IMG/VR virus record: IMGVR_UViG_3300028837_000826
Location: 1 to 21,356 of that record
Direction: 5' to 3' (one strand)
Length of the DNA stretch: 21,356 bases
Source of the DNA: a virus
The notes below the pieces were generated by a model. The model did no database searches. It saw only the letters and a program-made list of their open reading frames with translations, and was not told the DNA's origin. Shown one piece after another: positions 6,904-21,356 of the stretch. A program made the translations under genes and the position numbers. The stretch's first letter is position 1; the number at the start of each line of letters is the position of its first letter.

Positions 6904-8007
6904 ATGAATTTACAAGTAAGGGAGTCAGAAAAATTAAAGGGTGAATTTATAGAGCAGACTCAGGAAGAACGAAACAGAGGAGTTCTATCCGGATGGTTGC
7001 CTATCTGGGTAAAAAATGCTTATGATAATTATGCACACATAATGCAAGAGGCAAAGTCTCAACATATGTGTGTGTCTACTTTGCGCAAGGTTAACAGAGG
7101 ACCGGCGATCATTATTGGTTCCGGTCCCTCTCTTGATGAAACAGTTCCTCTGATAGGTGATTGGAAAGGTGCTGTGTTCGCGTCCGGGTCTAATAGTTTG
7201 GTATGTGCGAGATGGGGTCATAAGCCGGAATACATTTGTGTATTCGACGGTGGTGACACTATGTATCAGAAGTTTATGGGTTATGACTGGGAGGGATCAA
7301 CTCTGTTATGCCATCCTTCTATCTCTCCGCTTATTCTCAAAAACTGGATATGGAAAAAAAGATATTATCTCATGGCTCATTTCGGAGTACAATGGTTCGA
7401 TGAAATAATGCCGATTGCTTACGGTGATTACCTACGATTTCCAGGGGATGCCCCTCCGTGTATTACCGTTGGTGTTGCTAACGCAGGCTGTACTGTGAAT
7501 AATGAAATACAACTTGCAAATTATTTGGGGTATGGTCCTTTGTTTCTTATCGGTGTCGACTTCGGATATCCGGAAGGAAAAGAAAGGTTCACCAGGTGGA
7601 TATTGGAAAAAGGAGAATGGAAAAAAGTAGGACCGGAAAAATACCGGGACAGAAAATTACATAAATCAGATAATGGAATTCTGACCACAGAAGAACAGAT
7701 AGAATATAAGAATGCTCTTCTTGCAGTCTACCGGCAAGACAAGCCTCAATTATTTGATTGTAGTAATGGGATTATAACAGAATTGCCAAAATTAGATTTT
7801 AAGGAGGTCGTAGAAACCAATGGAAAAGGATTTGAAGGACAATATAGGACAAGTGACGAAATTGACAGAGTCTGTATCAATTATGCAAATAGGAAAAAAG
7901 AATTACAGGATAAATTCTTTGCCGATAGGAAGAGTTCGGGATCTAATGATAAAGCTAAATGCGCTATTCCAGTTAATACAACAGAAGGCAACCAGGGAAA
8001 ATCTTGA
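6904..8007 (+). CDS. DUF115-family protein (MptE/Maf-like) in the tail module
   Basis: A 367-residue protein with AAGGAG before ATG 6904. Residues 68-79 carry IIIGSGPSLDE, the nucleotide-binding-like 'GxGPSL' motif of DUF115 proteins. Residues about 188-223 carry TVGVANAGCTVNNEIQLANY and then FLIGVDFGYP, the second signature of that family. Known DUF115 members include MptE pterin diphosphokinases and Maf-type enzymes linked to flagellin glycosylation with nonulosonic acids. The actual reaction here cannot be told. It lies between the tail-tube gene and the chaperone genes, so it may act on tail protein or on host surface sugars. Its last 62 codons overlap the next gene in another frame. Confidence 0.75.
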   Translation: MNLQVRESEKLKGEFIEQTQEERNRGVLSGWLPIWVKNAYDNYAHIMQEAKSQHMCVSTLRKVNRGPAIIIGSGPSLDETVPLIGDWKGAVFASGSNSLVCARWGHKPEYICVFDGGDTMYQKFMGYDWEGSTLLCHPSISPLILKNWIWKKRYYLMAHFGVQWFDEIMPIAYGDYLRFPGDAPPCITVGVANAGCTVNNEIQLANYLGYGPLFLIGVDFGYPEGKERFTRWILEKGEWKKVGPEKYRDRKLHKSDNGILTTEEQIEYKNALLAVYRQDKPQLFDCSNGIITELPKLDFKEVVETNGKGFEGQYRTSDEIDRVCINYANRKKELQDKFFADRKSSGSNDKAKCAIPVNTTEGNQGKS

Positions 8008-17984: not shown

Positions 17985-18013
17985 TTGACAAAAAATAATA
18001 AATCCCTTATACT
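17985..18013 (+). promoter_or_regulatory. Consensus sigma70-type promoter (P2)
   Basis: TTGACA (17985-17990) and TATACT (18008-18013) are separated by 17 bp, in a very AT-rich upstream region with A tracts (17951-17982) that may act as an UP-like element. It drives the small-gene unit starting at 18064; the predicted start is near 18020. Confidence 0.8.
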
Positions 18014-18063: not shown

Positions 18064-18423
18064 ATGAACGAAATAAGCGAATGTTTGAAAAAAGAAATTG
18101 GAATAATAAGAGATGAACTGGAAAAAGGTGAATATAGATATTACGGTCTTAGAAAAGACAGTCATTACGAGGAAGGCCAAGTATCAAGAATATGGGACGG
18201 CGAAACAGGTTACCCTACTCAAGATTATCTTGATGGTCTTTCTGTCATTTATATAACCCTCGACACGATAGAAAACGGACTAATTCTCATTAACAATTAT
18301 TTTATAGATAAGTCTAATGAGGAATGTCATATTTATCTGCTTGGCTCAGACAATGGTCAAGATGGAGAAGACGTTGGGGAAGCTATTTTATTTGAGCATG
18401 TAAAACTTGCTCAAATAAAATAA
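18064..18423 (+). CDS. Acidic hypothetical protein, first gene of small-gene unit
   Basis: A 119-residue acidic protein behind TAGGAGGG at 18051-18058, the first gene after P2. An N-terminal helix (CLKKEIGIIRDELEKGEYRY) leads into YYGLRKDSHYEEGQVSRIWD and then a beta-rich, acidic C-terminal half (NGQDGEDVGEAILFE). The pattern 'Y-x-G-L-R ... S-x-x-W-D-G-x ... L-D-G' recalls small phage proteins of unknown role. High acidity and position in a separately promoted set of small genes would suit an inhibitor of a host protein, but that is only an inference. Confidence 0.7.
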   Translation: MNEISECLKKEIGIIRDELEKGEYRYYGLRKDSHYEEGQVSRIWDGETGYPTQDYLDGLSVIYITLDTIENGLILINNYFIDKSNEECHIYLLGSDNGQDGEDVGEAILFEHVKLAQIK

Positions 18424-18435
18424 TTATATAATTAA

Positions 18436-18480
18436 GGTGACGGCAGCCCTCGGGCTGTAAACCGCAGTCCCCGTTCGGGG
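18436..18480 (+). ncRNA. Two GC-rich hairpins in leader of the next gene (copy 1)
   Basis: In an AT-rich setting, CAGCC (18444-18448) pairs with GGCTG (18453-18457), enclosed by CGG (18441-18443)/CCG (18462-18464) with a TAAA bulge. Next to it CCCCG (18469-18473) pairs with CGGGG (18476-18480). No T-run follows, so this is not a terminator. The element is repeated before the gene at 18817. Confidence 0.5.
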
Positions 18481-18510
18481 TCGTAGATAAATTATTTGGA
18501 GGTAATTATG
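18442..18510 (+). repeat. Paralogous hairpin leader, copy 1
   Basis: This copy runs from GGCAG through the 18-bp identical core GTAAACCGCAGTCCCCGT (18457-18474), CGGGG and TCG to an AT-rich spacer, GGAGG and the start codon. Compared with copy 2 it has an 11-nt hairpin-forming insert after GGCAG and a shorter second loop. Confidence 0.65.
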
Positions 18511-18768
18511 GGGATCATGCTTGGAAACTTTTCCATTGAAGCTATGGAAAATAAATTAAATATTAAGTTTCCAGAAGAATTAAAAGAAATCATGGTAAAC
18601 ACACGGCAGGAAGATGTAAGCCACAAGATCAAGGAAGGTAAATGGCATTGCTTCCATTTGCCTTTTGTTATTGTTTGTGGCAATAAAGATTTTGCGGTAA
18701 AGATTGCAGAGTATCTAAAACCGCTTGCCGAGGAAATGACCGGGACTATAGAAATAGCATGGCAGTAA
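18508..18768 (+). CDS. Small hypothetical phage protein
   Basis: An 86-residue protein; GGAGG (18498-18502) sets the start at ATG 18508, since the TTG four codons earlier lies inside the ribosome site. The sequence MGIMLGNFSIEAMENKLNIK, then a segment with WHCFHLPFVIVCG, and a C-terminal helix (KIAEYLKPLAEEMTG) recalls a small conserved phage protein type of unknown function (leading LGNFSIxxxE, central H-x-F-x-x-P-F). Its stop TAA lies inside the second hairpin-leader repeat. No function is assigned. Confidence 0.65.
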   Translation: MGIMLGNFSIEAMENKLNIKFPEELKEIMVNTRQEDVSHKIKEGKWHCFHLPFVIVCGNKDFAVKIAEYLKPLAEEMTGTIEIAWQ

Positions 18769-18819
18769 ACCGCAGTCCCCGTCCGAAGCCGGGGATCGAA
18801 AATTATGGAGGACAATATG
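18761..18819 (+). repeat. Paralogous hairpin leader, copy 2
   Basis: This copy runs from GGCAG through the identical 18-bp core (18765-18782), an extended loop, CGGGGATCG and an AT-rich spacer to GGAGG and the ATG at 18817. The hairpin here is TCCCCG (18776-18781) with CGGGGA (18790-18795). The upstream gene's stop codon is formed by the TAA at 18766-18768 within the core. Confidence 0.65.
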
Positions 18820-19062: not shown

Positions 19063-19091
19063 CTCCCAGGGTAAAGGGAAAGGAGATAAGT

Positions 19092-19831: not shown

Positions 19832-19863
19832 AAAGCAAGGAATTTTATATTCTTTGCTTTTTT
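19832..19863 (+). terminator. Intrinsic terminator of the small-gene unit
   Basis: AAAGCAAGGAA (19832-19842) pairs with TTCTTTGCTTT (19850-19860), 11 pairs with one G-T wobble and a further T-A pair. T19858-T19863 form the T-run. The stem is AU-rich, so its strength is moderate. Confidence 0.7.
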
Positions 19864-19871
19864 AAATTTGC

Positions 19872-19900
19872 TTGACTTTTTTTTGTCAATAGTATATATT
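19872..19900 (+). promoter_or_regulatory. Sigma70-type promoter (P3)
   Basis: TTGACT (19872-19877) and TATATT (19895-19900) are separated by 17 bp, right after the previous terminator. The predicted start near 19907 begins the structured RNA that ends at 20019. Confidence 0.7.
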
Positions 19901-19906
19901 TATGTG

Positions 19907-20019
19907 CATGAGAGCAGCCCAGGTAAAAATAAAAAATATACTCCTTAATTTATTTTGTGTTTCTTCTTTGCTCTCTGCTGGGAGGGTGTTCCCCCAGAGG
20001 TATCCCTTCCAGCTTTTTT
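19907..20019 (+). ncRNA. Predicted structured small RNA / attenuated leader with anti-SD-like loop
   Basis: Between P3 and a strong terminator lies about 113 nt that folds compactly by eye. An outer stem GAGAGC (19910-19915)/GCTCTC (19970-19975) encloses an inner stem AAAATAAA (19926-19933)/TTTATTTT (19949-19956), whose apical loop contains CTCCTTA (19941-19947). The terminator hairpin follows directly. CCCAG (19918-19922) could also pair with CTGGG (19978-19982) of the terminator arm, an alternative antiterminator. Whether it is a free RNA or a leader of the following zinc-ribbon gene is open. Confidence 0.45.
19977..20019 (+). terminator. Strong GC-rich terminator / attenuator before zinc-ribbon gene
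   Basis: GCTGGGAGGG (19977-19986) pairs with CCCTTCCAGC (20004-20013), 10 pairs with one G-T wobble, followed by T6 (20014-20019). A smaller alternative hairpin (CTGGG 19978-19982 with CCCAG 19993-19997, plus GG/CC) uses the same 5' arm. The next ATG is only 4 nt after the T-run. Confidence 0.75.
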
Positions 20020-20023
20020 AGTT

Positions 20024-20248
20024 ATGCAATATGTAATAAAATCAGGTATTCAAATTGAATGTCCTGTATGCAATACAAAAAATGATGCAACTTTATTTGT
20101 AGGATTATTGAAAATTGAAGGAATTGGAATGAGGAAATGTTTGGAGTGCGGAAAAGTCCTATATTACACGGTGGAAATAACTTGCACGTTGAAAGACTCA
20201 CTTGATATGCTTAGGGAGGTTGAGTCAGAAGATGATTTGTCGTGTTGA
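20024..20248 (+). CDS. Small zinc-ribbon protein
   Basis: A 74-residue protein. C-P-V-C (13-16) and C-L-E-C-G-K (39-44) form a typical zinc-ribbon pair, separated by a Val/Leu/Ile-rich beta segment. The C-terminal part (TCTLKDSLDMLREVES) is a helix. It could bind nucleic acid or a partner protein through the zinc site. ATG 20024 lies just behind the terminator and has no ribosome site, so expression may depend on readthrough or be weak. An extended upstream frame is unlikely because it runs through the terminator. It overlaps the next gene by 17 nt. Confidence 0.6.
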   Translation: MQYVIKSGIQIECPVCNTKNDATLFVGLLKIEGIGMRKCLECGKVLYYTVEITCTLKDSLDMLREVESEDDLSC

Positions 20249-20411: not shown

Positions 20412-20601
20412 AAAGGTCGAAAATATTATAAAAAAAAAGGATAAAATAATACAAGTACTTGCTAAATTATTATCAGACACCGGTGATTGTCCTGATTATG
20501 AACAGGAAAACAAATGTTTTCATGAAATGGGTGGACCGTCATGTCCTGATTGCTGGTTGAAGTACGCCATAGAAAGAGCAGAGGAGCAAGAAAGTGAATA
20601 A
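20404..20601 (+). CDS. Small Cys-rich protein (65 aa), possibly metal-binding
   Basis: A 65-residue protein starting at GTG 20404, which overlaps the previous gene's stop by 8 nt in an AGTGAATAA junction. The Lys-rich N-terminal helix (NKKVENIIKKKDKIIQVLAK) is followed by C29, C38, H40, C47 and C50 in DCPDYEQENKCFHEMGG and PSCPDCW, a likely zinc or other metal site. It lies directly upstream of the radical SAM gene, which it overlaps by 8 nt, so a joint function is plausible. No family was recognised. Confidence 0.55.
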   Translation: MNKKVENIIKKKDKIIQVLAKLLSDTGDCPDYEQENKCFHEMGGPSCPDCWLKYAIERAEEQESE

Positions 20602-21356
20602 AATCCCCAAACAAATAGCAATAGAGGTAACAAATAAATGTCAGCTTAAATGTGTCGGATGTTTTCAGAATCTCGGGTTAAAAAAACACGAAGACATGAA
20701 TATTGATTATGTGAAGTCGATAATTGACCGGAACACATTTGGAGCAACCATTATACCTTTTCTATGGGGTGAACCGATTTTATATTCACATATATATGAA
20801 ATGTTTGAATATATTGTTAAAAAAAAGCAAAGGGCTTATTTGACATCTAATGCACTTATATGGAACGATGATTTATTTGAATTGATTACTCAAAAGAATA
20901 GTGTATACCAAATGATATTTTCCATTGATGGTCTTCCCGGGTCCAGGTCAATAGAAGTATGCAGGCCGGGTTCGGATGCTACGACTATTTTACAGAACAT
21001 AATGAGATTCAAAGCGCTCAAAGAAAAGAACAGGAATAATATTGACTTGTGTCTTAAGATATGTCAACGCGGGCAGGACTGGGAAGAGATAGAAAACTTC
21101 ATTTATTACTGGTTGAAGCTGGGAATTGATTATATATGTGTGGGCAGGATGCTTAATCAGTCCGGAATGCTATTGAGGAAATACCCATGTCAGTATTTTA
21201 ATGACAAGTTTCTTTTAATCCGGGTAGATAAAGAAATCATCCCGTGTATGTATTGTGAAGAGGTTGCCATTAACAATTGTTTTGAAATCGGGAAACTTAA
21301 CGATACGGAAGATTTGGTGAAGGCATACAATAGACCTGTATTACAAGAGTTAAGAA
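20594..21356 (+). CDS. Radical SAM / SPASM-like protein, 3' truncated by window edge
   Basis: An open frame from GTG 20594 to the window end, 254 residues visible. It carries C16-x3-C20-x2-C23 (NKCQLKCVGC), which binds the [4Fe-4S] cluster that cleaves S-adenosylmethionine. A GEP element (59-61), TSNA (84-87) and SIDG (110-113) follow at the places usual for the radical SAM barrel. A C-terminal cysteine set (C199, C218, C221, C229) with VDKEIIPCMYCEE fits a SPASM- or Twitch-type auxiliary cluster region. Such enzymes often modify peptides or sugars; the substrate is not visible. It overlaps the previous gene by 8 nt at an AGTGAATAA junction. The end lies beyond the window. Confidence 0.8.
   Translation, partial: MNKIPKQIAIEVTNKCQLKCVGCFQNLGLKKHEDMNIDYVKSIIDRNTFGATIIPFLWGEPILYSHIYEMFEYIVKKKQRAYLTSNALIWNDDLFELITQKNSVYQMIFSIDGLPGSRSIEVCRPGSDATTILQNIMRFKALKEKNRNNIDLCLKICQRGQDWEEIENFIYYWLKLGIDYICVGRMLNQSGMLLRKYPCQYFNDKFLLIRVDKEIIPCMYCEEVAINNCFEIGKLNDTEDLVKAYNRPVLQELR

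Follow-up and report, generated by a model that had tools for sequence, protein, structure and literature searches.

The late leader of phage lambda, pR'-tR', consists of a strong promoter, a short terminated RNA, and an operon behind the terminator, and its regulator, Q, acts at the promoter. The phage locus described here shares the arrangement of strong promoter, short terminated RNA, and operon behind the terminator, but Q control at the promoter is lambda's own feature. Other systems of interest are small RNAs that act by base pairing. The C4 antisense RNA of phages P1 and P7 carries loops complementary to a ribosome binding site and blocks translation (PMC12197685), while the bacterial IsrR uses single-stranded C-rich tracts to pair with the Shine-Dalgarno (SD) sequence and the AUG and has a poorly conserved terminator (PMC9410917). 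DicF is a small prophage-derived RNA that base pairs with host mRNAs (PMC5069750, PMC12197685).

Like C4, the RNA that we predict from the sequence of this locus would be a phage RNA presenting the complement of a ribosome site in a loop, but the target of C4, the ant mRNA, belongs to the phage that encodes C4, whereas no phage target was found here. The resemblance to the C-rich-loop small RNAs of Firmicutes (IsrR and also RsaE, FsrA, and LhrC) lies in C-rich tracts that pair with SD sites in A/T-rich genomes. However, those RNAs are encoded on host chromosomes and the IsrR loop is conserved, while the present unit is phage-borne and its loop diverges. DicF is made from the dicB operon transcript, unlike this unit with a promoter of its own, and no relation between the two was found. 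Membership in the C4 family was considered and rejected because the Rfam covariance model did not match, and Rfam searches at gathering and relaxed thresholds gave no credible match to the unit. We have filed the locus as a candidate small regulatory RNA of a phage and claim no family membership for it.

The stretch of DNA that we analyzed (the window) is a viral contig of 21,356 bases with phage head and tail genes. A compact promoter-RNA-terminator unit had been proposed for positions 19872-20019, and this observation is confirmed: the unit is real, as borne out by its fold and by the same module at the equal place in two relatives. The unit and its surroundings comprise the following features:

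19832-19860, plus strand: upstream terminator-like hairpin of the intrinsic type, from a sequence scan
19872-19900, plus strand: sigma-70-type promoter TTGACT-17-TATATT with a match score of 10/12
19907-20019, plus strand: predicted RNA of ~113 nt, its start placed from the -10 position, supported by the fold and by the module kept in relatives
19910-19975, plus strand: outer stem (19910-19917 paired with 19968-19975) around an A/U-rich loop that holds an inner AU stem
19941-19947, plus strand: apical-loop CUCCUUA, the C/U tract of this RNA (from nt 35), exact sequence not conserved
19977-20019, plus strand: intrinsic terminator hairpin (19977-20013) and U-tract, from the fold
20024-20248, plus strand: zinc-ribbon ORF of 74 amino acids directly 3' of the terminator, without an SD site, with homologues at the equal place in the relatives L002 and L003
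20594-21355, plus strand: radical-SAM ORF, a downstream member of the overlapping operon headed by the zinc ribbon, open at the window end

The stretch from promoter to terminator folds at -42.4 kcal/mol (z = -4.23) with none of 200 shuffles equally good, and the predicted 113-nt transcript by itself reaches -34.9 (z = -3.8 against shuffles), with an outer stem of 8 bp at its 5' end and a strong terminator at the other. Single elements of the unit are less telling. Promoter-like matches in total are at shuffle level (22 found vs. 24.3 expected), and though the exact CUCCUUA occurs in just 1.6% of dinucleotide-shuffled loops, some 6-nt anti-SD match is seen in 27% of them, so that the anti-SD motif alone is weak evidence. 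The unit rises above chance because the whole module is kept at the equal place in relatives. The hairpin just upstream of the promoter insulates the unit. Elsewhere in the window, another promoter (17985-18013; TTGACA-17-TATACT, 11/12) lies before an ORF at 18064-18423 and is itself preceded by a GCCCTG...CAGGGC hairpin that has a T-rich tail.

The relatives were found by searching with the downstream radical-SAM protein and are a 45,450-base contig (L002, in the following also G1) and a contig of 61,623 bases that carries a 69-base terminal repeat (L003 or G2); with the window they share 61-66% identity in the major head protein and the tail hub. In both, a promoter (2305-2332 in L002; 1618-1646 in L003, the latter weak with 7/12), a stem at the RNA 5' end, an A/U-rich loop, and a terminator stand directly before a zinc-ribbon homologue of 30-34% identity, and BLAST found no DNA similarity between the window and either relative at the unit. 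Their outer stems are 12 and 10 bp long, fully paired, and different from the window stem at most equal positions, which would fit stem covariation as judged by inspection and not by a statistical test, on a small count of four units. The L002 unit has no inner helix at all. In both relatives the unit directly follows a gene for a 168-amino-acid protein, while the window holds ~2.4 kb of extra small genes between the two.

The four units compared come from these three phages (the window, G1, and two copies in G2, G2a and G2b), and the second copy in G2 was recovered by a scan for stem-plus-terminator units:

G2 contig, ~7858: G2b unit with promoter TTGACA-17-TATAAT (12/12), stem UGUGCGUG/CACGCACA, loop with AAAACCUCCUUGUAUAUAUG, and an 11-bp terminator

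G2b sits directly behind another terminator, folds with a z of -5.6, and lies 5' of an unrelated small gene. Since the loose module scan, which depends on the threshold, gives 0.1-2 chance units per shuffled genome, G2b alone is not decisive; what carries it is the perfect promoter, the strong fold, and the details shared with the other units, not the scan alone. Across the units, the folds reach z values of -3.8 to -5.6 against shuffles, the outer stem is paired every time although its base pairs differ at most positions, and the stem begins 6-9 nt after the -10 box, i.e., near the predicted RNA start, in four out of four.

The original prediction had seen in the CUCCUUA loop a copy of the anti-SD sequence at the 16S rRNA 3' end, and this is partly supported, for the kind of sequence exposed but not for its letters. 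In all four units a C/U tract, the complement of SD-like sequence, recurs at a similar position, beginning at nt 35, 38, 40, and 33 of the RNAs (with transcript starts inferred). Its unpaired probability is 0.67-0.99 across the units (0.99 for CUCCUU in the predicted window RNA), and the loop of G2b shows ACCUCCUU. The exact heptamer, however, is not kept: with stem and terminator persisting, the orthologues have UCUCCAACC in L002 and ACCUUUUUU in L003, which refutes CUCCUUA itself as the conserved element.

In three of the four units, reverse-complementing the loop yields a full start site composed of an SD sequence, 5-6 nt, and AUG (ACAAGGAGGUUUUCAUGAA for G2b, GGUUGGAGAUUUUAUGG for G1, and AAAAAAGGUUUGUCAUGC for G2a), while the window's own loop is without the CAU part. 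Such a pattern has a chance of 3-10% per loop when loops are shuffled, and three of four jointly amount to ~6e-4 by simple arithmetic, a figure that precedes any correction for the post hoc choice of the pattern. We regard the apparent complementarity to whole start sites as suggestive only.

Taking these observations together, we give roughly even chances to the reading that the unit is a phage gene for a ~113-nt small antisense RNA acting on translation initiation. A host-type promoter would produce an RNA that starts at the base of the closing stem and ends in the intrinsic terminator, and the large A/U-rich loop would offer its C/U tract in single-stranded form. This tract could pair with the SD region of one or few mRNAs, extending across the AUG in some units, and pairing at the start site would keep ribosomes off the target. 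The loop would differ between phages because the targets, probably host or competitor mRNAs, differ, whereas the scaffold is kept. Read-through past the terminator probably also yields some mRNA of the zinc-ribbon/radical-SAM operon. What the sequences show is the module, kept at one place, with its C/U tract exposed; transcription, pairing, and targets are inferred. A bolder version, to us a long shot, envisages a family of phage RNAs whose scaffold (closing stem at the 5' end plus terminator) stays fixed while the loop, an antisense version of an entire translation start site (SD, spacer, and AUG), changes fast, so that every phage would carry blockers reprogrammed against particular genes of its host or of competitors. 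Little is charted of the stand-alone small RNAs that uncultivated phages encode, and a scaffold kept in shape with a rewritten loop, if true, would amount to a programmable translation blocker of natural origin and would provide a simple rule for finding more.

The search for targets bears on a further claim, namely that a free RNA of this type could block the many AGGAGG sites of phage or host mRNAs. AGGAG(G) sites are indeed present in many window genes, but the predicted binding of the loop to start sites of its own phage does not exceed that of shuffled loops in three of four units (z of -0.6 to -0.7; G2b, -2.0), and the own-genome target search in the phage genomes gave no outstanding duplex, so that a general block finds no support there. 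With no target found among the phage's own mRNAs, those of the host or of competitors are likelier. An exact 20-nt stretch of the G2b complement has five matches in 84,980 genomes, located at the starts of unrelated genes. In each of the five, the predicted ATG opens a reading frame, which marks the complement as a canonical start site and not as the identity of a target; by estimate the number of matches is chance-like, and we see no target among them.

The main rival to a small antisense RNA is a cis-acting leader, in which the zinc-ribbon/radical-SAM operon would be transcribed from this promoter and gated by the terminator, with the short RNA as the default product and the operon expressed only on read-through, much as at the lambda late promoter. 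We consider this possible, though a good deal short of probable. It draws on the terminator lying directly before the zinc-ribbon ATG in all three phages, with the ATG close behind the U-tract, and on the organization of the operon, in which the zinc ribbon is the first of several overlapping genes with no strong promoter of the operon's own between them. The SD of the zinc ribbon is also the weakest among 29 genes tested in the window (+0.6 kcal/mol) and weak in G1 (-3.2), but a moderate SD-like site precedes the G2 homologue (-7.0). Moreover, no conserved alternative terminator/antiterminator pairing was seen by eye, a large unconserved loop exposing a C/U tract would be needless for a plain leader, and G2b precedes an unrelated small gene. 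The leader and the antisense RNA are compatible since read-through could feed the operon, and a gated leader, if true, would account for the control of a zinc-ribbon/radical-SAM operon that has no clear ribosome site.

The remaining readings fare worse. A general anti-SD decoy, whose loop would imitate the 16S rRNA 3' end and block AGGAGG sites at large, could invoke the exposed CUCCUUA of the window and ACCUCCUU of G2b, but the exact match is lost in L002 and L003, own start sites are bound no better than by shuffled loops in three of four units, and the phage's own SD-rich genes would be hit; we judge it improbable. Still less credible is the RNA antitoxin of a type III toxin-antitoxin pair with a terminator between RNA and toxin gene. 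Its layout of promoter, RNA, terminator, and small gene recalls toxI-toxN, but a reading of the RNA revealed no tandem repeats, and the 74-amino-acid zinc ribbon encoded downstream gave no toxin match. The structure predicted for this protein is of low confidence (pLDDT 65), and structure comparison turned up a weak, non-significant Elf1-like resemblance only. A 6S-like RNA that ties up RNA polymerase by imitating an open promoter would account for a closing stem with a large open region, but there is no Rfam 6S match even at an E value of 10 and the L002 unit is without any inner helix, so that we give this reading the least credence of all.

Profile searches with the zinc ribbon, the radical-SAM protein, the 168-amino-acid upstream gene, a coiled-coil gene, and the tail hub returned L002 and L003 as the only unit-bearing relatives, along with the distant radical-SAM phages L005, L006, L007, and L008 plus L027 and L028. 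The unit was not found in the scanned stretches of L005, L006, L008, L027 (which stops before the relevant region), and L028. The radical-SAM profile gave no relative among isolate genomes and hence pointed to no host, and neither a DNA search in phage records nor an exact DNA pattern in viral contigs matched the unit.

The radical-SAM protein of the window (20594-21355) has a CxxxCxxC motif and relatives in several otherwise different phages (L005, L006, and L008), some of which have further radical-SAM genes nearby. Among the tail genes, the window encodes an MptE-like protein (6904-8007; PF01973), with similar-looking proteins at the equal place in G1 and G2 and one adjoining a radical-SAM gene in L005. 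An intergenic element, GTAAACCGCAGTCCCCG...CGGGG, is present before small ORFs in two copies (18453-18510 and 18761-18819) that are ~75% identical by self-BLAST of the window. Another recurrent element resembling CCCCAGGGUUAAGGGGAGAAGGAG, a small C/G hairpin fused to an SD site, is located just before start codons in the window (19065-19091), in G1 (reverse complement, ~19485), and in G2, where at least 6 repeats are found (34723, 35333, 36019, 36218, 36446, 36759, and 39516 in the contig rotated by 40000).
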